NCBI GenBank assembly: GCA_000310025.1
Contig: FN649728.1
Span: 5,940,601 to 6,004,600, forward strand
Length of the DNA stretch: 64,000 nucleotides
DNA from: Ectocarpus siliculosus
Taxonomy: Eukaryota > Sar > Phaeophyceae > Ectocarpales > Ectocarpaceae
Direction of reading: 5' to 3'
How positions within the stretch are numbered: position 1 is the stretch's first letter; each line of letters opens with the position of its first letter. The notes beneath the pieces were generated by a model. The model saw nothing but the letters and a program-made list of their open reading frames with translations. It was not told the DNA's origin and did not search any database. Positions 2,845 to 18,375 of this stretch are shown piece by piece. The position numbers were made by a program, and so were the translations under genes.

Positions 2845-3277
2845 CGTTACGGTTCGGAATGATATTGTTCCGCAAGTACGTACACCCTCACAGAGGTGGT
2901 TAGCCGCAGTCCGCGGAGCCTCTGCGGGAGTCGTGGAGTTCGCCCCTCCCTTCTCACTCCTTTCTCGAGCTACCCTTCCTGAGCTCGAACTAAAAGAATA
3001 AGACCATAACATCTGCAAGGAGGCCTTTGCTCCGACCCAATACCAGCTCCCGCAGCCGGTACAAGTATCTTCAAGGTTCGTCGCACTCGGTACAGTTGCT
3101 CGATTGCACAGAGAGAGGTCAGTGTGGGACAGCTTTTGTCCAATATGCATGGCGTTGGCGGAGAAGCCAGTAAACCTTTCTCGCGCCAAATATCTCTGGC
3201 ATGAACGGGAATATCAGTGACCCGTTGACAACATGCAATGCCGCCTCTCCCTTCCTAGAGTCGAGCGACTCGTTTCA
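2845..3277 (+). repeat. Left LTR, 433 bp
   Basis: Nearly identical to 22149-22581, in the same orientation and of the same length. It ends in CGTTTCA. It abuts the inverted pol copy directly. Confidence 0.85.
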
Positions 3278-6026
3278 CGGGCGGACAACGGTGTACGCGG
3301 GGTGGAGCGTGGAGTGAGCTGATCAGCCAGTTCGGGATGATACAGATGCCACAATGCGATGAAACCATCTAGCTGCAAGCGTGTGAACGCGCGAAGAAGC
3401 TCAAATTCCGGCAACCACACGGACTCAACACCAGCCTGAGAAATGGCTTTGTACTCCCATACTAAAGAACCAGTAGGTGAATGGACCCGACGGCAATCAG
3501 AAAGGGAGACGAACAATCCTTGGTCCGGCTGTTCCACTGGCAGGCAAAAATCGGGACCCCACGCAAACTGCATAAATTCCTCGGCTATGGAGTGTCTTAG
3601 ATGAGGCGGGCGAATATGAAAGGGTTTCAACTCGGCAGTGCACACTCTTCTCGAACGTAGTTTTCTTCCCTGCATCTTCACTTTCACGCTCAAACCCCTC
3701 TGCAAAACTTCCTCTACTGTCCAGGGCCCGGTGTAGAGATCGTGCTGCAGCTTCCTGCCCCGCTTGTCTCGGTGACGACTGCTGTCAGCTTCGCGCACCA
3801 AGACGAGGTTGCCTTTCTCTACTGTCACCGACGCCGAGGTCCTCGAAATGGTGGCATTCGCCTTCGACCGTGCTGCCACCCGCAGGTCGTGGCGCTTCTC
3901 GAGCACCAGCCTAACTTCCCGGAGGTTCTGTTTCCGTCGTTCCACAAAGTTGTCCAAGCCCCCCGAATGATCTTGGTTTCCCTCCTCCGAGAGAGGCGCC
4001 AACGAGTCAAGCGAGGTGCGAGGTTTGCGGCCGAACAGCAGTTCAAACGGAGTCATGTGTGGGTGAACGGAGGTGTCTGGTAGCGTGCGTTTGATCCAAA
4101 TGGCCGGCAATACATATTCATCCCAACGGTCGTTCCAGCACTTGCACAGCTCTGCCAACAACTCTTGCATCCATCCTCCCAATCTCTCTACTGTGCCCTG
4201 ACCCCGGGCATGATCAGCTGCGCCAAAAGTGATGTCCGCTTGTAGCCATCGACAAAGGTGAGTTACCACTTCTCCTCCGAACTCTCTACCACCATCGCAA
4301 CGAATTACTCTAAGGACGCCGAAAGTCAAACACAGTCTCTGACAACGCTCGCGCTACGCCGATTGCTTCCTTGGTCGCAAGAGGGAACCCAAAAGGGAAT
4401 TTGGATGCACGGTCTACCACCAGCAAAATGTACTTGTTGCCAGACAACGAGGTCGTGTCAATTTTGAGTAGGTCAATCTCGAGTTCATCCCAAGGTTCTA
4501 GTGGTCTCCCTGGCAGCATCGGTACGCGTCTACTACTGGGCCTTTTGCGACGTCTACAGCTACAAGATAAAACGTAATGCCGGACATCTCGTGCCAGTGT
4601 GGGCCAGTGAAAGTGATCCCGAATTACTGCCAAGGTCGCTCCCACTCCTGCATGCCCCTGTAACGTGTGGACCAATGCGAGGATGTCTGCCACCATGCTT
4701 TTGGGGGTCGCTATTACTGGTTTGCCCTTTTCAAACGCGAATCGTAGCACTCCTTTAACATCCAAACTGTAACCTGCTCTACCACTCCCTTCTAGATCCC
4801 TCCGAACCTGGCCCAAAAGGGCATCGCTTTGCTGGTGTCGAACGAGTGTGTCTGGATTCTTCAGCGTGCGCAGCGCCCTATGGATCGCTGTCGACCCCGT
4901 GTCCACCGCTGACCTAAAGGGCGATTCCCCCCCTGCCGAAAGCACCTCCCCCACGTTTGCGGATCGCGTGCACTCGGGCGGAACTGCCTCCGGTAGTTGC
5001 GTCGGGAGCGGTTCGATAGGCTCAGGTACGAACGCGGGCTGTAGCCCCGATGATAAAACCTGTGCCACGGTAGGCAGCTGAGGGTCGTTTAGGGGTTGCA
5101 ACCGTACTGAGGGTGTGCGTTTACGGCTGGAGCGACGCGGTGGCAGTGGGTCGTTGAGCGAGGCGCAGGAAGCAAACGGGAAGTAAGCAAACAGCGGTGC
5201 TATGTTCAACTGATCCGATGCATGTACGACATCCATTGGCTCAGATTCCTCCTCCAATGTAAGCTCAGCAAGACGCCTGCCATTAAGAACGGGGCCTTGC
5301 GGGCCAACCACAGCTTCGGAATTGGGGGTTGTAAAGTCGTCCGGAAAAGAGTCGTCGATGTCTCCGGGGGAGGCACTTGCTACGGGGAGACGGGATAAAG
5401 CATCGGGCAGTACGTGATGCATTCCTGCTTTCCATTCTAATACTATGTCATACTCCATAAGCCTAAGCACCCACCTATGCAACTTGGGGCAAAGCTCCCT
5501 ACTGCAAAACAACCATGTGAGTGCAGAGCAATCCGTTACTACTTTGAACTGCCGACCCGCTAAATATGGTTTGAAATGGTCAACGCCCCACAATACCCCC
5601 ATGCACTCCCGTTCCGTGGGCCCGCGTCGAGCGTCGGTGCGAGAGAACTTGTGGCTGGCGAAGGCGATGATCCTGGGCGTACCGTCGATGGTCTGTAGCA
5701 GGGTCGCACCTGCACCCACTGAGCTAGCGTCGACATGCATCTCGAACGGCGCATTAGGATCAGGGAAGGCTAACACGGTGGGAGAAGCAAGTGATAGTCT
5801 GAGCTGTTGGAAGGCGTGTTCCTCAGTCTCCCCCCACGGAATAGGGAGCTTGCGTGCGCGCTTGGACGCAAAGGCCTTATTTCGAAGGATGTCGGATAGG
5901 GGGGCTGCTATCACACTATATTGCGGAACGAACTGTCGAAGGTATCCTGTCAGCCCCAAAAACGTGCGCAGGTCTTCTACTGTTCGAGGCCGAGGCATGT
6001 TGGCTATCGCTTCGAGTTTAGACGGC
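3278..6026 (-). mobile_element. Ty3/Gypsy pol fossil, copy A (RNase H, integrase)
   Basis: Reads on the minus strand. From its upstream end come the reverse-transcriptase connection, RNase H (VDASSVGAGA, DALSRLP), an H2C2 integrase finger (HTLQGHAG ... CSC) and an integrase core, then a C-terminal tail. It is nearly identical to copy B (18650-21553) but inverted. It is a partial copy with about one or two breaks. Its upstream reverse-transcriptase part lies at 16340-16828, separated by the nested DNA transposon. Confidence 0.85.
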
Positions 6027-6034
6027 GCTGGGTG
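6027..6034. repeat. 8-bp target site duplication, left
   Basis: GCTGGGTG here recurs at 16332-16339, on either side of the nested transposon. Both flanks belong to the same Gypsy pol coding sequence. Confidence 0.85.
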
Positions 6035-6140
6035 GGGTGATGTACATTATCCTTATTCGTGCCCATGGGTACCCATGGGCACCCATGGGTATACCCATGG
6101 GCATTGTACCCATGGGCACCCATGGGGCGTGGGTACCTAG
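6035..6140 (+). repeat. Left terminal inverted repeat with CCCATGGG units
   Basis: Begins GGGTGATGTACATTATCC, continues TTATTCGTGC, then several CCCATGGGTACCC-like palindromes up to GGGGCGTGGGTACC. It matches the reverse complement of 16225-16331, including the GGGGCGTGGGTACC box. The palindromes make each end able to fold on itself. Confidence 0.75.
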
Positions 6141-7037
6141 ACTATGGGAACGACGTTGGAAATTGCAAAACTCCCTCTGTTAGATGTATGCATACGTACT
6201 CCTCGTTGTGGACACTTTGGGTTCGGCACCCGGCATTTTCTTCCTCTCGGACAAGCCACTCTCTTTCTCGGGGGCACACAGCGGGTAACGCGATGCAACA
6301 CTGCGCATGGCTGGTACTCGTAAGCCATTCACCTGTGGCGCCTGTCCTTACCGTTCAACCTCGCGTAAACTGGATGCATACGCGCGCTATGCTTACCACC
6401 CATGACAAAGAAAGGCGACGATCCATCACCTAGCAACATATGAAGGCATAGTCTGACTGACGGAGGAAATGCGTATATACGAAGTTTAAAGATCCCAGAG
6501 CACGTATTTCAAGCGGAAGGTCATCAGCTACCAAGGGCAGGTAGCCGGAAACGCTACTCTAGTCAGATGGCATTATGGTCGGGGTCGCGTCCCCCCCAGC
6601 GAAAGGGTATCGGGGGCGCGTGAGGGTTAGCGCCAGTGAGTTGCCGCCCCGGTCGCAGTTTACAGCCTTGGTGTACGTACCAACAGCGAATAACTCGACT
6701 CTTCGCTTTTGTTCATGGCCACAACTTGTACATCATGCTGATTCCATTGCTGCTGCCGCCCCAAGCGTTACCGCAGAGTCCATGGACCGCACCGTTGGCC
6801 TTTTAGACATTGCGGCGGGCACGGTGATACGCTGCGCAGCAGTTCAACTAGGCTAAGCGTGTGCACCCAACTTTGGTAATAACGTAGATCATGTGTGTGA
6901 TTGTTCGGGGTTGTGTCGCAGTGTACGGCGAATGGAATAAGTGTGGTGTGTTCTTTGGATAAAACGAGCAAAAAATAAGGTAAATGCTCGTGGTAGAAAA
7001 TATTTATGCGTGAGGGGCCTTGTCAACGGAGGGTTCT
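6141..7037. other. No recognisable gene inside the transposon
   Basis: Several short open frames, none with recognisable motifs. It could hold untranslated or subterminal sequence of the transposon. Confidence 0.4.
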
Positions 7038-7283
7038 ATGCGCCACATCTTCCCAAAGATTGCTTTTGTTGTCCTGGGCACTCTTGTCGTCGTCCTCGTG
7101 CAAGAAGAGGTGGGAGTCCGCTGGCACAACCTCTCACGGAGGTTGGCAACCACGAACAGTGTACCTACATGGAATGACGTGTCGCAACACCTCGTGCGTG
7201 AAGCTGTGGGTCAAGTTTTCCTCGTGACCGGCTACAAGGCTGAACCACGTGCTTTGGTACTTACAAGGGACATCGAAAGCTAA
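7038..7283 (+). CDS. Small hypothetical protein, possible membrane anchor
   Basis: An 81-residue frame starting MRHIFPKIAFVVLG. Residues 7 to 21 are strongly hydrophobic (IAFVVLGTLVVVLV) after two basic residues, like a signal anchor. The rest is soluble and mixed in charge. A frame-compatible start 18 bases upstream (TTG) is less likely. It lies inside the KDZ-type transposon. I do not recognise a family, and the frame may be chance. Confidence 0.25.
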   Translation: MRHIFPKIAFVVLGTLVVVLVQEEVGVRWHNLSRRLATTNSVPTWNDVSQHLVREAVGQVFLVTGYKAEPRALVLTRDIES

Positions 7284-7689
7284 ATTACTTGTAATACGTG
7301 CTGTTCGTTGCCGTACGCAGGAGCTGCCGACAAGGATTGGATTTCTTGTCCACACACCCCTCCTGTGTAGCCTTGGATGGTTGTAGTTGTACGGAAAAAG
7401 GATACTGAAAGTGTACATTTTATTACTCTGCGTACAATGAAAAGTGTCGTATACGTCTCACGACGAAAATGACAGTACTGTCGCCATACCTAGTTGGACG
7501 CCACCAATAGAAACCTGGGAAGGCCGTACAAAAATGGTCATATACGTACGCGGTTGTCGTCACCTTGAAGCCTCTCACCGAAAACACACCCGCGGACGCT
7601 CTTGCCGATACACGGTATACGAGAACATGGCAACAGGTAACGACCACTGAAAATTAAGCAGGCAGCCGCAAGGATGTCACTTCCATTGA

Positions 7690-9076
7690 GGCAGAGAATA
7701 ACCTTGGAGGACCCGCTGAGGGTAGTAAGTCGTGCCATACTTCGATTGAAAACACTAAACAACTGCGAGAGAGAAAAACCCATGAGGACCCGATGATGGT
7801 AATAAGTCGTTCCATACACTTCGATTGAAAACGCCAAACAACTGCGAGAAACAAACGTGGCACAACACGAACGACTGAAGTCCCACAAAGAAAACCAGGG
7901 AATACCCCGCGTCGGAACATGCACGGGGCGCCATTCGTAAACCTCTTCACCCCACCGTGACAGAGCGAGCTCGAATGCCCTGGTCTACAAAACCACGATC
8001 GTTCATCACGAAGTATGGAGCTGGTCACCACCAGGCATTTCCCCGCATATTACTGCGCGCTTCAAGTGTTTATCCTTTCAACGAGTCAAAGATGCATCTC
8101 TAAACTGAACCCTCTTCAGCGACCTTGGCCACATGTAACCACACGTAAAACCGTCACCTGTAGACATCCCGTCAAACCTCAGTTCGACTATAGCTCTCGG
8201 CCAACGTACGCCTGACAGTGGTTGTTGGAAGCGTTTGCCAAACGACAACTCCTTCAGGGTAGGAGCCCAACATGACTCGAGAGTGATTGAATGGTCCCCC
8301 GAAGGCAAGCGACTCCAATCCAGGCGGCCACTGCAAGGTGTAAACCTTCGTGTTGAACTTACCCTCAAGCACCAACGTCTTTAGGCTCGTAGGCCAGGTG
8401 GTGTCGCTTACACGCCACCCGCAGCCTGACCCAAACTCGAAAGCTTCTAGCGTGGACGGCCACTTAGCGCGTTCGACGGAAACCATGTCGTCCAAATCAT
8501 CCGGGAACACAACCTATGCAAGTTCCTGGGCCAATGAACGGCATCAACCTCCTGGTTAAATTTTAAGGGAAACGACACCTCCTACAGCCCGTCAGGCAAC
8601 TGCATGCCTTGTATTGGGCTGTTGAAACTCCCCCCCAACCGTAGGACCTTGGGCGTGGCAGGGAGTACCACAGGAGGCCTCAGCCCCCCGTTCCACGCAC
8701 CCCCCAAGGTGAGATACTGCAGCGAATCAGGCCAGATAACGCCTAGCAGGTTCTGCTGGAACGCATCACCGGCCGTCAGAGCGATCAATGCATCCGGCCA
8801 ATGATAGCCGGTCAATGTCTGGTCAAAGCACGTACCAAACGCCAAACGTTGCAAGCTACTGGGCCACCGGACTGCGGCGATTGGCTGGTTGAAGCATCCT
8901 CCTAGACGAATGTCCTCGATGGAATCTACGAAAGTCACACCTTCGATGGACCTGTTGAATGTGCTTTCTAGCGAAAGTTGCTTCAAATTAGGAGGCATAC
9001 TGATACTTTCGAGTGGCTGGTTGAAGCGGCTCTCGTAGCCGGATCCTGTTATATTCTTATCCCTTACCCAGATCAT
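7690..9076 (-). pseudogene. FNIP-type leucine-rich repeat gene, decayed
   Basis: The minus strand encodes tandem repeats of about 22 residues with the pattern W-P-x-S-L-x-x-L-x-F-G-x-x-F-N-Q, for example WPSSLQRLAFGTCFDQ and WPTSLKTLVLEGKFN. This is the FNIP repeat form known from Dictyostelium, algae and some large DNA viruses, thought to mediate protein contacts. At least 12 repeats can be read. The frame is broken: a TAG near 8582, a shift near 8510, another shift near 8170-8370, and the last repeats (7690-7870, FNRS forms) lie in yet another frame. It lies just downstream of the tyrosine recombinase on the same strand, so it may be cargo of the transposon or captured host sequence. Confidence 0.7.
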
Positions 9077-9225
9077 TCGATGTAAGTATTGGATTTGGTT
9101 GGGTGAGGCCTCCTGCGCCGGTCTGTGGTCCCGCCCATTACTTTCTTGTTAATTATCCGATCTGTCACATCTTAGTTATTGACCACTCACGCCTCTAAGC
9201 TAGGTCTCGCCCACCCAAACTTTCT

Positions 9226-11107
9226 TTATGTTTCGCGGCGAGCACACGCAGAGAAATCGCATGTGAAGTCAGCAGACAACGGCAACGCGTTTGAGTCTGC
9301 GTACAGCTCGCTACGGGTCCTCTTGGAACCCGGTTCCCCCACACTAGTAGTGGCGCCAGCATATCGCTTCGCTACACTCTCCGTGCGCCACCCGGCAATT
9401 TTCATGATAGCGACCATCGCCGTTCCGTCAAGCGACTGCGCTACAGAACCTCCGACGCGGAACGAGTGCATAGTAGCGGTGCGGCAGTCCCGCCGCTCGG
9501 AAATGCCCTTGTAGGGCAGCCGTCATCTGAACCGCCGTAAGCGGAGCGCAGCCCCGAGTTCCATCCAGCAGAACGATAGGAAACAGATGCCCTTGGGACA
9601 AATCCCAGCCAATACGCTCCGCCGCACTGATGTAGGCCGTAAAATTGCTCACCGCACAAATAGACGGGCAAGCGACGTCCGGACGCACGACCACGGCATC
9701 AACAGAGTCCCGGAGGGTCTTGCCAAACTGGAAGTTGAAAATCAGAAGACCCTGCCCCGCGGGCAACCGCAGAACTTGCAATCCCATAGTGAAGGAGAGA
9801 TCATGGCCTCGCCGCATGGAGGCGAACGCCAGCGAAAACAAAGCGACGTCCCTGGTGAGCTCAATACGTTCCGCCAAAGAGGACGCAGTCTGCGCGCGAG
9901 AGCGCATGTCCCTCAACAGATCGATGAGGACGTGCGGTAACATAGCCTCTGCCTGGTTGACAGCGACACCCACACATTTTTTTTCCTCCCCCCGTGAAGA
10001 CGAGGTAGGAGTCGACGAGAGGACTACAACAGGGGTTGCCCGAGCGCGTGGCAGGGTCCCAGCTGCTGTCTTTTCCCAACTGTTCTTGCATCGCCATCTT
10101 CAGCTTGGACACGATCCCTTTCTGCATGGACGCGGCGGCACTCCGCGTAGCACATGGCGTGTTTGGAAGACAATCGCGGCCGTGAGTCGTGCCGACACCA
10201 GGGCATGCCCTGTCGTGCACCCGCTTGGTACCACTACCTTGTGTTTCCAAGAAGCAGAGATAGTCAAACACGTCTCGGTCCGACGCCTGCTTCCAACCCC
10301 GACGTTGTTCAGTCGCCGAAAGTATGAAAGCGTCGAACCCGTCCGCTACGGCGCACTTGCACTGTTGAGGACGACGGTTAGACGCGGCCGAGAGGACCTG
10401 ATCACCACGAGCGCGCAGCGCGTCGAAATCGATCGACACCCGAGCCGCTTGAGGGTCACGCGGTACCGGACGCCCGCGGGCAGGCTGAACACCGCAGGAT
10501 CAACAATAGTTGTAATGTCCCACGTTTTCCGTATGGCACGACGAACACAGTCTTCTGACTGCAGGAGGCGGCCATGGCGGAGCGCGAGTTCCACAGTGTA
10601 CTCGGCCAGGAGCTTCTTCGCCTCGGCCTGGCGGTAGGCAACTGACTTGTCGCCCGCCTGCGAAGTGGCCACCTTCCTGGCGCGCGCCAAAACTGCCGTG
10701 TAGGTCTCCACCCCGGGAAGGGGCGGCAGCCGAGTGGCCACCTCACCCAAACGGAGGACCAGCTCCTCCACAGTGCCCTGATCGCAACCGAGCCGGTTGC
10801 GGTCGAACACCCGCCCAAGGTCTAGCGTTGCCCCTGCTCCCGGCACCAGCGCCGTGTAGCACGGCAGAGCGTAGGCTGCCGTGGTCGCGTCCACAAACGC
10901 GGCCGTCTGGCGGTCGGGCCGGGGAGGCAGCCCAGGTGGAGGCAGGGAAAGCGGTCCCATCGGCGCGCTGGCAGCCGCTGGGGCCGCGGCAGCCGCCGCC
11001 GGGGCAGAAGCCTCTGAGGAAGCAGGCGCAGCCGCTGAGGAAGCCGTTGTAGAAGAAGCAGCCGCCGAAGTCGCCGCCGTGTAGCGCCGCGTGTTGCGAG
11101 GCGGCAT
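9226..11107 (-). pseudogene. Tyrosine recombinase (Crypton/DIRS-like), frame-broken
   Basis: Minus-strand gene starting MPPRNTRRY at 11107. An Ala/Pro-rich N-terminus is followed by a helical region (GVETYTAVLARARKVA), an N-terminal SAM-like domain (about 10440-10100) and the catalytic domain. Catalytic residues visible are Arg in SMRRGHDL (about 9810), His and Arg of HSFR (9468 and 9459), Trp of AGWRTESVAKRYAG (about 9390) and the nucleophile Tyr (about 9363). Such enzymes cut and rejoin DNA through a phosphotyrosine link. The reading frame shifts three times as read: near 10440, at the A-run near 9985, and near 9480. Either the gene is decayed, or these are unrecognised introns or sequencing slips. 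No reverse transcriptase of DIRS type lies beside it, which favours a Crypton-like or transposon-accessory enzyme. Confidence 0.75.
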
Positions 11108-11677
11108 GTTACGACTCTCAAATATATCCCTTCTCCTCGATAGCTCCGGCGTATTTCGGGAGAGAAAAGGGGGACTAAACTAGGTGGGGTCATTTTCCAA
11201 CATCCTTTCTGGAATATCTGACTCTTCCCGATTTCGTTCCGAAATCTAGATGCGTCTCAAATCCGAGATTACGAACGACATCACCTCAACGGTGGCCGGC
11301 CACACCACTCCGTCCATGGGCGAGTCGAATAAATCCTTGGCCCGAAATACACGCCCGAAATACACGCAAGTGACTCGGCGGCAACATGCGAACATGTGAT
11401 TTGCCCGCTAGCGGACCATAAGTCCGCGGAAATCGACATCATCCTGACGCCGTGCATGTTGTCGTGGAACTTGTTAAAAGAAGGGGCGGACGTACATGCC
11501 GACCAAGTACTCGCAACCGCAGTCGATGGCTTCAGCTTGGTTAGCCACTCTACCGATTCTCTGTCGTATGTCGGCCCCTGGTAAATTTCGTCGCCTAGGG
11601 TACTCCTGAGGAGAGGATCCAGCATCCCTCTGTGGGTTACTGTGGCACACATCGCTGCTACGTTGCATATCTGACAG
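11108..11677. promoter_or_regulatory. Intergenic region between divergent genes
   Basis: Separates the recombinase start (minus) from the first plausible plus-strand exon at 11678. It would hold both promoters if the two genes are divergently transcribed. No motif was identified. A short direct duplication (CCCGAAATACACGC twice near 11340-11370) is present. Confidence 0.3.
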
Positions 11678-11820
11678 GGGGGGCTTCAACTCCTACGCTG
11701 AACTGCAATCCAACACGGCCGCCGCGGACGTCGGCGGCGGCCGGGAGTTGCGCCTCCTGGGTTCAGAGCTCCTGCAGTGCTGGGAGATATACGCCGTGCT
11801 TAAGGCCGCAAATGATGTCG
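11678..11820 (+). CDS. Candidate upstream exon of transposon gene
   Basis: Open stretch preceded by a good acceptor (CATATCTGACAG) and followed by a donor (GTAAG). It reads GFNSYAELQSNT ... LGSELLQCWEIYAVLKAAND, which is protein-like and helix-rich. It could be an early exon of the KDZ-like transposase downstream or a separate gene. I do not recognise the motif. Confidence 0.3.
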
Positions 11821-13122
11821 GTAAGAAAGTTGCGTTGTCCCCTTACTGCAACATGTTGTATTCTGTTGTGACAACACAGCAGACCTCTCCCCGCATTGGA
11901 ATACATTTTCCATCGAAGGCGAACAAAATTTAGCACCCAATCCCCATTCCGACCGCGTACAGGTTAACAGTAACTTCTCGTAGGAAGGATAAGGGAGCGC
12001 CGAGCAGGGGACATGCGTGCGAGCCTTTTATTTGGCAGTAGTCAATCGTTTGTTTCTTCTTGTCTTTCCTCTGTCATTACGCAAGGGGTGGGACACCTAC
12101 CGGGGGTGGGAGATGTTTGACAAGCCTTAGCGGTTACACGAACGACCGCGCCTCCTCTACAGCACGGAGGGTTATTCACACAGAACCGACAACCGATGGC
12201 GAGTCGCCTTCAGCTAACCCCTTTAGGACGAAACAGCAACCTACGACGAAGGGTTTTTGATGTCGGGTTTCTGCATAAACAACAATTGCGGCGGTGGCAT
12301 ACTCTGTGATTGGTTACCGACATGATATCGTCTTTACATCACCAGAGGGTTCGGGAGGGCTTATCAACTACCTATCAGGTCCGTGTTTCGTCGTGAGTCT
12401 GAATATCAGTCTTTGGACTTCTTCGAAGGTACAGAGCTGCTTGGCTCCTCCTCCTTCATCTGGCCCGTTTTACAGATCCCCAACAACTGTTACTCCTTTC
12501 TCCTTGCGTTCTTTATTTTTGGCAGTTTTTTTTTGGAAAACCGCTCCGATAGGGGTGCCGGTTTTTCTTCAGCAACGTGATGTGCGCACGTTCCAGTCTA
12601 AAAAGTCTCGCACAAGCGCCGTGGTTTTTGCATCGACTGCCCCTCTGCTTCACGGGTGAAAAATACCCACCTCAACGTTTTTCCTTGAACAGCGCAAGCT
12701 ATTTTACCCCTAACTCTACTCCTAACCCCACCACAGCTACAGGACAATAGGCGTGTTCCGGCCAGGATGGTCCCTCCGACATGGGTTCTCAGCGGAGGAC
12801 GGAACGCGCCCGGCAGACGACGCGAACGATTTTTCTCACACCGCATGGACTTGAGACAGAAGCTCCACACACCAACATCAGTTGAGGGTGTACATCACCA
12901 TGCACTCCAAGAATACACTGTAGGAGGGCCTGCGATTGAAGCCCACTGACACCGCAGGCTTCGGGTTTAACCTATTTTGAACGTGGCGGTATCGAGTGTA
13001 TCATAACGAATCTGGCGCGCATGGGAGCAGCCGGGCTTAAGCCACATTGATCGGCACCATCACAAACCCCTCGCTCCCTTGTCACCGCGTGCGTGTGTGT
13101 GCCGACAACATAGCCTGAGGAC
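11821..13122. other. Intron or intergenic sequence with a candidate exon
   Basis: Mostly non-coding. One short candidate exon lies near 12380-12428 (VFRRESEYQSLDFFE, acceptor CTATCAG before, donor GTACAG after), unproven. If the transposase gene starts near 11678, most of this is intron. Confidence 0.3.
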
Positions 13123-14121
13123 ATGAGGATGCTCCGTGCAGTTCTAGGAAGGAAGATCAGCTGGGGGAGTCTTTCCGCGAGCTGGTCTTGCGGGATCATC
13201 TGCGGGATAGTGCCCCTCTTGGAGGCGGAAGGATGTGCCGATGTGGACGCGGCCCTGAAACATATTTTTCCCGATGAGGATCGACGCCCGACCATCCTCT
13301 TTTACGACAAGGCCTGCGTTCTGGACCGCTACCTCAGCGGCCGAGGGGATCTGTCCTGGGTTGGAACGATGCTGATCGTCGACCGGTACGTGACACGTGG
13401 GCCGGTGTTTCCAAAGCACCCGGGGCAATTCAACGAGAGACTACGTACACCTCGGCCTACAGTAGGGCGTGCTCCCTGATAGTGAGTTACTCACAGCAGC
13501 AGGTTGGGCGTTCTAAGTTGTAGTTGGCGTGGCGTTGGGGGTGACGTGTACAGTGTGTCCGAACTCCAACTTGGAATTCAGTACCACATACCCCGGCCGT
13601 ACCCAATACCCGCGTTGTGCGCATATCGTTACTATGGACGCCGGCAGGTTCCATTATCGGGGCCATACGGAGCTTGCGTGCTCTATCCTCAACAACCCAA
13701 ACGACTACAACAACCCTCTTCTGTGAAACTTGCAGCAAGACCCACCCGAGTTCTGCTGGAACTCCTCCATCGCCGAGTCCAACAACGGGTGGCTAAGCCG
13801 TGCGTCAGATACACCCTGCGTCGAACCAATACCAGTTTCTGGTTAACACCGTCATTACAGACCCCCGTTGATGTCTTTTCCTCGCTGTCTCACTCGTAGT
13901 CCGTGTTGTTTCATCCATTAAGGCTAAGTACCTCCAACTACGTTAACTACCCACACCTGTTCTGAAACGCATGCCTCTCTTGTTGACCAGGGTTTCGACA
14001 TGTCCTCATGCGCATGCCAAAGGTGCTGAACCGTTTCGTCTTGGACAACAACATCTGCTTCAAGAACGAGCTCCTGCTCACCAAAAAGCTGTTGTCCCAG
14101 CACCCGACCTTTGACCGTTAG
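13123..14121 (+). CDS. KDZ-type DDE transposase, catalytic part
   Basis: Three exons with GT-AG introns: about 13123-13385, 13648-13799 and 13992-14121. Joining them keeps frame at both junctions. Exon 1 holds WSCGIICGIVPL and FYDKAC (first Asp). The exon 1/2 join gives VDRFHYRGH (second Asp). Exon 2 holds NSSIAESNNGWL (Glu). Exon 3 continues RHVLMRMPKVLNRF. This order of motifs (FYD-AC, VDRFH--GH, NSxIAE) is that of the Kyakuja-Dileera-Zisupton transposases, which cut and paste DNA with an RNase H-fold core. One in-frame TGA (13724-13726) lies between the second Asp and the Glu, so this copy may be inactive. The N-terminal region, usually with cysteine clusters, is not located. It may lie in exons between 11678 and 13122. 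Confidence 0.7.
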
Positions 14122-15229
14122 TGAAGCACGTACAACACATACATCCGGAACGGCAGGTTGTAGACGTCAGGAACCGTACAGCTCCCGCTGCCATCTTTTT
14201 CGTCCTCCTACGGTGTGTCGAGAGCGGGCCAACATTCCTACCGATCCGAGTTCCCTGGTGCTCTCTACCTAGCAGAGAGGAATCCCACCCGCACAGATGT
14301 CCTGGAGTGATGGGCTGAAGGATGCACTTGGTTATGGTTACACCATTCGCGCTACCTAATGGGGCTGCTTTACGTACATTCGAGCCGTTTAGGTTGCTAC
14401 CTCTTATCTAGCTGCGTCATGTCACTTTGATCGGCGACGTTTCTTCCTAGAGTTGGTTTACTAGAATGGGTTGACGTTGTTGTCGTTGTTTTTTTGGTCC
14501 CATTGCACGGTTGACATTGAAAATTGCCAACGTTTCCCGGTATGGGTTTCCTTCCTGGCGGGAGTGTTGTCTCTGTTCTCGGGACGATATGTGCCGTGTG
14601 TATGTCAACATCGTGGTTCCGACTTCTTGTCAATATCTTGGTTCCGACGACATCTTTTTTCCTTGTTGCGTCGTACACAGCGTAACGACGATATTTTACA
14701 ATGTCCCACGCGGAGTTCGTCGTGAAGGTGTCGAGCGTGGATTTTCTATGGTGCTGTGTTTGGCTTCATATATTTTTCACAACATCGTCTTTTTGTGGCG
14801 TCATTACGTATGTTAGTATTTCCTTCGTGGTTCTTCAGGACCGAGCCAAATAGTGCCGAATATGGGGCATATACAGCAAGGGGTAAGGGATTCAGGTCGT
14901 GGCAGAAGCGACCCCGCCCCAAGAAGCGTAAGGGGGTTTCAACCACGTGGACACGAGATGGTCACGACATACATACCGGGTTTCATATCGTCGCCGAAGC
15001 GAACCCGCATTGCCAATTGACGTTCTGTTCCTTACTTTATCTCTCCCCGAGGTAGTATACACGCATTCGTGCGTGCCCGTTCAGGTGACAAAAGGGTTTC
15101 AAACCATACCCGAAGCTTTCCCGCCCCGCGGCCCTCTTCATTGCGTCGGGGTTCTCCGTTAATTTCTGTGTCTCGGTGCAGATGTTTGATACATTGGCCC
15201 ATAACCAAGTGAAATTACACGGTGGGTAC
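14122..15229. other. No gene seen
   Basis: Transposon interior downstream of the transposase. Short open frames only. A CCGAAGC..(A/T)CCCGC-type segment recurs near 14990 and 15110. Confidence 0.4.
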
Positions 15230-15665
15230 CCACGTGCACCATAGGCAATGCCCATGGGTACCCATGGGTACCCAATCCTTACATAACCAAGTGATATTAC
15301 CCCGTGGGTACCCACGTTCACCATGGGCAATGCCCATGGGTACCCTTGGGTTCCCACAGACAATGCCCATAGGTACCCATGGGTTCCAACAGACAATGCC
15401 CATGGGTACCCATGGGAACCCATGGGCATGCCCATGGGTACCCATGTGTACCCATGGGTACCCATGGGTTCCCACAGGCAATGCCCATGGGTACCCATGG
15501 GTTCCCACAGACAATGCCCATGGGTACCCATGGGTTACCACGGACAATGCCTATGGGTGCCCATGGTGACTCATGGCCACACACATGGTGACCCATGGGC
15601 ACCCAAACTGATGCCTAACGCTAGCCCATGGTCGTCACCGTGGGTAGCCACAGGCACCCGTTGGT
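15230..15665. repeat. CCCATGGGTACCC minisatellite, internal
   Basis: Tandem units of about 30 to 35 bases built on CCCATGGGTACCCATGGG joined by TTCCCACAGACAATG-like spacers. All six frames stay open through much of it because the core is its own complement. The resulting Met-Gly-Thr-His-Gly-Tyr-Pro-Trp polypeptides are not taken as genes. Confidence 0.85.
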
Positions 15666-16224
15666 GATAACCGTGGGTAGCGATCCGTTGGTATCGGTGG
15701 TGTAGCACCCTACGGGTGCCGACGGGAATTCGGGATGATCACCAAGGGACCTATTCGTCCTGACGAAGGAAAGACGACATGTCTTGGAGCTTTGAAAACA
15801 ACTAAACCCACCGTACCGTTTAAATCTGAAACAAGTCAGTATGATGAAGAGACGTGCCCAAGGCCTCGGCGTGCGCGTGCACTGTACGAAACACGGGAGA
15901 TGCGACTACGCCCTCAGCGTCGCGCCGTGGACCTGGGTGAGCCTAGCGCCGTGGATCTGGGTGAGGCCACACTGACGCGCTTTCCTCCACGCCCACACCA
16001 AGCCAGTTCAGTTGTATCCTTTCTTTCTTTACATTCTTGCGCCGAGCTGGAATAATGCTGGACTCACCAACTGCTGTGCTGTGAGCCTCCCACGGAACCT
16101 TGGGTGTACCACCTCGCTGCGGCCGCGCCTTCGTCGACCCCGCCTAATCGATGTTATAGAGTACGCTTAATCTTGTTACCCGTTGTGATCCATCCCCGTG
16201 GAGGTGAAGGCCATTATGGTCCTC
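15666..16224. other. No gene seen
   Basis: Right subterminal part of the transposon. It contains a short near-duplication (GTGGACCTGGGTGAGCC and GTGGATCTGGGTGAGGC near 15928 and 15948). Confidence 0.4.
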
Positions 16225-16331
16225 CGTGGGCCGTTGGTGGCCGTGTGTGCCCATGGGTACCCATGGGTACCCATGGGGCGTGGGTACCCATGGGTACCCT
16301 TGTGCACGAATAACGATAGTGTATATGATTG
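16225..16331 (-). repeat. Right terminal inverted repeat with CCCATGGG units
   Basis: The reverse complement of this segment starts CAATCATATACACTATCG, then TTATTCGTGC, then CCCATGGGTACC palindromes, mirroring the left end at 6035-6140. Confidence 0.75.
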
Positions 16332-16339
16332 GCTGGGTG
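16332..16339. repeat. 8-bp target site duplication, right
   Basis: GCTGGGTG, identical to 6027-6034. Confidence 0.85.
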
Positions 16340-17084: not shown

Positions 17085-18375
17085 GAAGCACCCAGCACCA
17101 GGCGGCGTGCATAGTTAGTTATAAGCACCCAGTGCTAGGTGACAGAAAAAAAACAAACGAAAAACAGCAATCACAAATTGAACACGGGGAACACCCAGCA
17201 CCAGGCGACGTGCATAGTTAGTTATAAGCACCCAGTGCTAGGTGACAGAAAAAAACAAACGAAAAACAGCAATCACAAATTAAACACTGGGAACACCCAG
17301 CACCAGGCGAAGCACCCAGCACCAGGCGACGTGCATGGTTAGTTATAAGCACCCAGTGCTAGGTGACAGAAATAAAAACAAGGAGCAGGGTTAGTTATAA
17401 GCACCCAGTGCTAGGTGACAGAAAAAACAAACGAAAAACAGCAATCACAAATGAAACACTGGGAACACCCAGCACCAGGCGAAGCACCCAGCACCAGGCG
17501 ACGTGCATAGTTAGTTATAAGCACCCAGTGCTAGGCGACAGAAAAAAAACAACGAAGAACAGCAATCACAAATTAAACACTGGGAACACCCAGCACCAGG
17601 CGACGCGCATAGTTAGTTATAAGCACCCAGTGCTAGGCGACCGAAATTAAACACTGGGAACACCCAGCACCAGGCGACGCGCATAGTTAGTTATAAGCAC
17701 CCAGTGCTAGGCGACAGAAAACACATGGAAAAAAAAAAAAAAGAAAGAAAGAAAAAAAAAGTAATATAAGTTGAGTAAGTGGGAGCACCCAGCACCAGGC
17801 GATAGTTAGTTATAAGCACCCNNNNNNNNNNNNNNNNNNNNNNNNNNNNNNNNNNNNNNNNNNNNNNNNNNNNNNNNNNNNNNNNNNNNNNNNNNNNNNN
17901 NNNNNNNNNNNNNNNNNNNNNAACTGGGCGGTTATACCTATCCATGCGCGTGGCCTGGTGCTGGGTGTTTCCAGAGTGTCTAATTTTTCGTTTATTTTTT
18001 TCCGTCACCTAGCACTGGGTGCTTATAACTAACTATGCACGTCGCCTGGTGCTGGGTGCTCCCACTATGCTCAACTTGTATTACTATTTTGTGATTGCTA
18101 ATTTCTGTTTCTGGTTTTCTGTCGCCTAGCACTGGGTGCTTATAACTAACTATGCGCGTCGCCTGGTGCTGGGTGTTTCCAGTGTTTAATTGGTGATTGC
18201 TGTTTTTCGTTTGTTTTTTTCTGTCACGTAGCACTGGGTGCTTATAACTAACTATGCGCGTCGCCTGGTGCTGGGTGTTCCCAGTGTTTAATTTGTAATT
18301 GCTGTTCTTCGTTTGATTTTTTTCTGTCACCTAGCACTGGGTGCTTATAACTAACTATGCACGTCGCCTGGTGCT
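17085..18375. repeat. CACCCAG(T/C)(G/A)C minisatellite
   Basis: Units of about 100 bp alternate two related boxes, CACCCAGTGCTAGGTGACAG and CACCCAGCACCAGGCGAC, joined by GTTAGTTATAAG and A-rich spacers. Direction flips across the gap. Some units lack the A-rich spacer. Confidence 0.85.
17822..17921. other. Assembly gap, 100 N
   Basis: Exactly 100 N, a conventional gap of unknown length, in the middle of the palindromic minisatellite. Confidence 0.95.

Follow-up and report, generated by a model that had tools for sequence, protein, structure and literature searches.

A KDZ-like transposon copy of Ectocarpus siliculosus whose FNIP-repeat gene is apparently interrupted by a reverse transcriptase-deleted tyrosine recombinase retrotransposon

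The analysed window, a 64,000-nucleotide stretch of contig FN649728.1 of the brown alga Ectocarpus siliculosus, contains at positions 6035-16331 a large transposon in which transposase-like exons on the plus strand lie together with a FNIP-repeat gene and a tyrosine recombinase (YR) gene on the minus strand. An earlier note, made from the sequence alone, had delimited this element by a duplication, inverted ends and insertion into a Gypsy pol frame, and these borders were confirmed. An exact 8-bp target site duplication (TSD), GCTGGGTG, is present at 6027-6034 and 16332-16339, and the left and right 40-bp ends are identical at 31/40 positions (20,000 random 40-bp pairs from the window gave a mean match of 10.0 and a maximum of 22, with none reaching 31). 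Rejoining the flanks with a single TSD restored a continuous Gypsy pol frame (...SSQEFLGMIIDATGMHPAPSKLEAIANMPRPRTVEDLRTFLG...), the downstream portion of which matched the RT_RNaseH (3.5e-29) and Integrase_H2C2 (1.7e-12) profiles. The element is, in our firmly held reading, a non-autonomous copy of a KDZ-like transposon with a captured FNIP gene, within which a YR retrotransposon deleted for its reverse transcriptase (RT) is nested. This reading builds on the observed borders, TSDs and empty sites, on a deleted retroelement with RT-bearing relatives, and on frame breaks in the FNIP gene, the YR and the transposase of the window copy. The features of the element (ORF, open reading frame) are as follows.

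6027-6034: left copy of the 8-bp TSD, GCTGGGTG (sequence and end comparison)
6035-6074, plus strand: left terminal inverted repeat (GGGTGATGTACATTATCCTTATTCGTGCCC...), with an identical or near-identical terminus in 24/25 other copies read, the exception being C25, whose left end was unaligned
6060-6130: left subterminal array of near-palindromic CCCATGGGTAC units (sequence)
8172-9046, minus strand: 3′ part of the FNIP-repeat gene, with broken frames (PF05725; 40 genomic copies scored of 42 candidates)
9047-11271, minus strand: apparent nested RT-deleted YR retrotransposon of DIRS order, Ngaro/PAT type (A1 end at 11271, B end at 9047, YR remnants at 9226-10547)
9226-10439, minus strand: YR gene, split over three frames (intact 462-amino-acid homologue at L051:2335-3723, minus strand)
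10545-10548: junction, with a 4-bp overlap, of a 3,189-bp internal deletion that took out the RT ORF (comparison with the C12 copy)
10346-11107, minus strand: first ORF of the nested unit, assigned as Gag by position only, with no domain match
11272-11646, minus strand: 5′ part of the FNIP gene, separated from 8172-9046 by the nested unit (frame across the empty site)
12196-12216, plus strand: start of the putative N-terminal transposase ORF (MASRLQL), truncated by a deletion of ~1.6 kb that removed the cysteine-containing section
13123-13385, plus strand: putative transposase exon with FYDKAC and LIVD(R) (motif)
13648-13799, plus strand: putative transposase exon with (R)FHYRGH and NSSIAESNN and an in-frame TGA (motif)
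13991-14121, plus strand: putative last transposase exon (FRHVLMRMPKVLNRFVLDNNICFKNELLLTKKLLSQHPTFDR, stop)
15220-15700: right subterminal array of CCCATGGGTAC-type repeats (sequence)
16292-16331, minus strand: right terminal inverted repeat (CAATCATATACACTATCGTTATTCGTGC... on the minus strand; end comparison)
16332-16339: right copy of the 8-bp TSD (sequence and end comparison)

The unit that carries the recombinase is 2,225 bp long and has its own borders (9047-11271) inside the FNIP gene, an interruption overlooked by the earlier note. When the element was compared with its copies by BLAST, L019, L049 and L050 omitted exactly element positions 3013-5237, corresponding to window positions 9047-11271. 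The empty site in these three copies reads GGATCC/GAACGA and the filled site GGATCC/TGTTAT...GATTAC/GAACGA (slashes mark the junctions), with no target duplication. The FNIP frame runs on over the empty site, as VVWPATVEVMSFGSG/CESRFNQPLES in L050 and likewise to CESRFN in L049. Copies were sought in the 189-Mb assembly from which the window itself derives, and in every DNA search 40 candidates were scored (out of 110 for the left end, 230 for the YR unit, 90 for the right end, 44 for the transposase core, 42 for FNIP and 475 for segment 11272-12216); simple-array-only rows and second pieces of single copies were removed before places were counted. Among the best 40 of the 230 matches to the nested unit, 24 fall within the transposon family and the remaining 16 lie outside. 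The outside relatives share the borders of the unit and are 93-97% identical to it, and in 12 of these 16 the pieces are ordered 1-73, 2070-2225 and 1-1502, i.e., B1-A2-B2. In L051, L052 and L053 a repeat of ~77 bp occurs twice around ~265 bp, corresponding to B1-A2-B2 split direct repeats, and the far end carries A1 in L051 with L054 and in L053 with L055. Both L051 and L053 contain an RT ORF in addition to a YR ORF of 461-462 amino acids, while L052 is masked beyond position 4496. The RT ORF of L051 matched RVT_1 (4.4e-8), and a candidate RNase H in L051 matched the NCBIfam ribonuclease H model at 0.008, below the model's cut-off.

The window unit is colinear with the RT-bearing C12 copy, its segments 1-1502 and 1499-2225 flanking a 3,189-bp gap that spans the RT ORF. 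This colinearity argues that the unit is an RT-deleted retrotransposon of DIRS order and Ngaro/PAT type, the two types not being told apart. Judged by coordinates, the RT-less junction was found in 0/16 scored copies outside the transposon family (among the best 40 of 230). The R...HxxR...W...Y signature reported earlier for the minus strand is present, as judged by eye, but the gene is broken by two frameshifts into three reading frames. Profile scores for the recombinase were weak, comprising phrog_216 integrase (0.0096 and 0.02), Phage_integrase (0.07, in L053 only) and Cre chains (at least 0.07). In the C2 copy (L056, G000:C2:6652800-6653600), the nested unit is preceded by B2-A2-like sequence with 85% identity, compared with 97% for the unit.

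The transposon belongs to a multicopy family with fixed ends and cut-and-paste-type transposition. Among the 40 best-scored candidates of each search, 39 places were counted for the left end, 39 for the core and 40 for the right end; ten left-half places were without core or right end. The left ends of C436 and C39 (28 kb) are identical, and the two copies may represent a single locus assembled twice. Both ends were sought in 13 copies and aligned in 12, the left end of C25 having failed to align. Exact 8-bp TSDs were present in 10/12 copies and were all distinct (GCTGGGTG, GTTTTGAT, GATCTGTC, TGGTGGAA, GATCAGTT, CACCGAGC, TGTACTGG, AACCGGTT, GAGTATAG and AAGGTAAC); one of them, GAGTATAG, is intact around the YR-less copy C33_4.16M. 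The remaining two, C24_2.23M and C33_4.24M, lacked a matching duplication, which weighs against the reading. The earlier note had suggested asking whether the same ends enclose the same genes each time. Where both ends and the transposase core were all scored, this was the case for the FNIP gene (21/21 copies), but the YR was present in 17/21.

At 12216/12217, ~1.6 kb of the transposase coding sequence is missing from the window copy, a loss overlooked by the earlier note. The extra sequence at this point measures ~1.6 kb in C73 (L032), C39 (L042) and C33 (L050) and ~0.9 kb in L049, in which an ORF is continuous through the point. Of the 31 copies measured, three (the window copy C3, C24_1.25M and C7) have a segment 12216-13000 of 782-783 bp, and in the remaining 28 it spans 1.7-3.5 kb; the short form was assigned by coordinates in C24_1.25M and C7, and the junction itself was read in the window only. 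Each short-form copy also carries a TGA in the second transposase exon, and their TSDs differ (GCTGGGTG in the window, TGTACTGG in C24_1.25M and GTTTTGAT in C7). The shared deletion combined with different TSDs indicates that a copy whose own transposase is dead has moved. Transposase supplied in trans is likely, being the simplest account of this movement.

FNIP repeats had been claimed for the minus strand, and PF05725 indeed matched window positions 8582-9076 on that strand at 1.7e-20, and L049 at 2.7e-25. In C145 (L058) the frame is open across 511 amino acids or more, while most of the transposon copies listed contain internal frame stops. Elsewhere in the genome, 150 of 1,539 candidates were scored and gave 137 FNIP repeat matches; a gene often held several of them, and most lie in long open frames, many of 300-800 amino acids. 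The sequence data are best fitted by a captured, host-type cargo gene that is mostly decaying, and the presence of FNIP between the same ends in every complete copy scored supports the cargo role proposed for it earlier. It would derive from the large FNIP family of the host; a donor gene was not found among 138 scored of 604 candidates, the nearest listed outside the family being 39-57% identical over varying lengths. Two results weigh against this account. In 10 of the 33 places with core and right end, FNIP was not scored ahead of the core, and pN/pS (the ratio of nonsynonymous to synonymous differences) ranged from 0.45 to 1.13 in ten pairs of five copies, so that weak constraint remains compatible. 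These ten places (eight KR, one YKR and one KRF) have no scored left end in the cluster; in three of them (C67, C439 and C2), the segment with the FNIP 5′ part (11272-12216) matched over its whole length. No single explanation was found for all ten. In the kelp Saccharina, 121 FNIP proteins have been reported, closest to those of a Cafeteria giant virus (PMC4421812), and virophages are described as carrying FNIP genes (PMC3671162, PMC10945749).

The site of the nested unit was occupied within 3 bp of the junction in 23 of the 40 FNIP copies scored and empty in 10; the other seven comprised one unscored 2.1-kb gap, one solo repeat remnant and five copies without the neighbouring segment. The own borders of the unit, the empty sites and the relatives outside the family together argue that the YR is a hitchhiker and FNIP the cargo. 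We infer that the YR takes no part in the movement of the transposon, and that most of the empty sites never held the unit.

The KDZ motifs FYDKAC, VDRFHYRGH and NSSIAE were all found on the plus strand, as the earlier note had listed them, if two putative introns are allowed. The TGA in exon 2 of the window copy corresponds to W in L032 and P0012. A search with the 181-amino-acid core gave seven homologous proteins, of which three were named (all from Ectocarpus) and four unnamed; the closest named one, with 82% identity, is from the brown alga Ectocarpus sp. 6 AP-2014. A sister transposase at C5 (G000:C5:2218606-2219615) has exons 91-97% identical to protein P0012 of Ectocarpus sp. 6, compared with 84% for the first exon of the window copy. 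The assignment to KDZ is tentative. It draws on the motifs, on the 8-bp duplication and on the known transposable element content of the host, and is confirmed by no profile, which counts against it. Pfam gave no match to the exon pieces or to the spliced 181-amino-acid core; a genome search with PF18758 gave no match, as was likewise the case in the control genomes; and a fold model of the transposase (predicted local distance difference test, pLDDT, 36) was too poor for use. Homologues P0012-P0018 had no precomputed Pfam domain, and a 387-amino-acid composite transposase query returned no homologue. Another DDE superfamily that makes 8-bp duplications (for example hAT) is therefore worth weighing, as no KDZ profile matched and hAT elements also usually generate 8-bp duplications (PMC12730594). 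We nevertheless consider it unlikely, given that Ectocarpus has eight KDZ families with 6,403 copies versus four hAT families with 128 copies (PMC12477816, Table 1). Among KDZ elements, the 8-bp TSDs are shared with Zisupton and Dileera and the terminal inverted repeats with Zisupton. The order of the motifs and the cysteine-containing N-terminal section of the element also fit what we take to be the KDZ arrangement.

The history that we propose for the KDZ-like element would begin with a multicopy cut-and-paste transposon, making 8-bp target duplications, that captured a host-type FNIP-repeat gene. A DIRS-order YR retrotransposon of Ngaro/PAT type would then have entered an ancestral copy by insertion into its FNIP gene, giving rise to the RT-less unit now found at that single site in 23/40 FNIP copies, and the non-autonomous window copy would have been moved by transposase supplied in trans. 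In a tree of 30 left-end rows, a young clade of 12 rows (100/100) consisted of 11 YR-bearing rows and one unassigned row. Among the older copies YR-bearing and YR-less rows were intermixed with weak support, a pattern that weighs against the reading; the tree neither proves nor excludes a single YR insertion. The same intermixing, together with empty sites that bear no footprint, would fit an origin of most empty sites by precise YR-mediated excision, and Ngaro excision during virophage reactivation has been proposed in Cafeteria (PMC10945749), so that some empty sites may be excision products. We hold excision to be improbable as the source of most of them, since exchange between copies could also cause the weakly supported mixing, and the empty copies C145 and C376 have a more complete FNIP gene, which fits an older state.

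A combined variant, in which FNIP still works as an accessory gene in uninterrupted copies such as C145, perhaps as in virophages, and the RT-less YR rides the transposon and exits by precise excision, is in our estimate more doubtful still; if true, the RT-less unit would be a stepping stone towards a YR-only element. That the nested unit is instead a Crypton, i.e., a DNA transposon, is suggested by its single further ORF beside the YR and by the missing target duplication, but this is scarcely tenable, as the outside relatives share its borders, the two read along their length contain RT together with split direct repeats, and one RT-bearing relative is colinear with it save for a single 3,189-bp gap. 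Least credible is a three-gene transposon with the YR as a working part that resolves insertion intermediates or excises circles, as the earlier note had supposed: the recombinase does recur in most complete copies and at one place in the majority of FNIP copies, but the site is cleanly empty in 10/40 (once within an intact 8-bp duplication), the unit has its own internal insertion borders and the ends of a retroelement found elsewhere with RT, it disrupts a gene of the transposon, and for the window copy the borders and the two frameshifts refute the idea.

The retained reading, a KDZ-like transposon with FNIP cargo and a nested retroelement, makes the window element an apparent instance of the giant KDZ transposons published for Ectocarpus, which are described as having accessory genes, pseudogenised transposases and unrelated nested transposable elements fixed among multiple copies (PMC12477816); the same survey lists 15 Ngaro and five PAT-like families. 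Large size, accessory genes, an often pseudogenised transposase and fixed nested elements are shared with such elements, for example KDZ-1_Ec32, whereas FNIP is unmentioned in the main text of that source, with which the window family was compared by description only. Fungal KDZ elements with a TET/JBP gene (Dileera, Kyakuja) likewise hold a non-transposase gene between their ends, and 8-bp TSDs occur in Zisupton and Dileera; however, the host differs, the window cargo is FNIP rather than a dioxygenase, and Kyakuja has 7-bp TSDs and no terminal inverted repeats (PMC12730594). The nested unit resembles Ngaro/PAT-type retrotransposons in the RT and YR ORFs (RT in its relatives), the split direct repeats and the lack of target duplication, but is missing the RT ORF as well as one pair of A-B repeats, a form seen only inside the carrier among the copies scored. 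Endogenous virophages of Cafeteria also combine a FNIP-repeat gene with an inserted Ngaro, although there the carrier is a virophage and not a cut-and-paste transposon (PMC10945749); the position within FNIP is a finding for the window family. Region B of Ectocarpus, likened by description only, has both a FNIP pseudogene and transposase relics, but was interpreted as part of a viral fragment (PMC2373305). The published literature searched yielded no KDZ-like transposon with FNIP as its cargo. The earlier remark that no described element with this content was known holds to that extent, but similar nests have been published (PMC12477816, PMC10945749).

The analysis distinguishes what is cargo from what is hitchhiker in this large algal transposon, and an apparent three-part machine becomes an ordinary nest of mobile elements. 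One transposable element copy can spread by riding inside another, as the single occupied site illustrates, and a recombinase found within transposon borders need not be the transposon's own.

Several further arrangements were observed. In C30_3.45M (L057, G000:C30:3458040-3461040), the left half stops in a B2-A2 retroelement remnant of ~335 bp, located at the FNIP site that the nested unit occupies in other copies; beyond it lies sequence with no other near-full-length genome match; the remnant is either the analogue of a solo repeat or a product of ectopic exchange. In C145 (L058, L059; G000:C145:54400-60400), the FNIP N-terminus is longer than in core-bearing copies, with the break at window position 11646. 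Past the FNIP gene, at 1.3 kb, comes a second left-type end with the same orientation, and then unrelated repeats. The stretch up to this second end is shared by C376 at 95%, and the arrangement might date from before the fusion of the FNIP gene with the transposase half. The subterminal arrays of CCCATGGGTAC units at 6060-6130 and 15220-15700 vary among copies and are possibly binding sites of the transposase. Outside the element, at window positions 17089-18373, GCTGGGTG and its complement are repeated every ~20-190 bp within tandem repeats, in which one ORF encodes SYKHPVLGDRK-type units.

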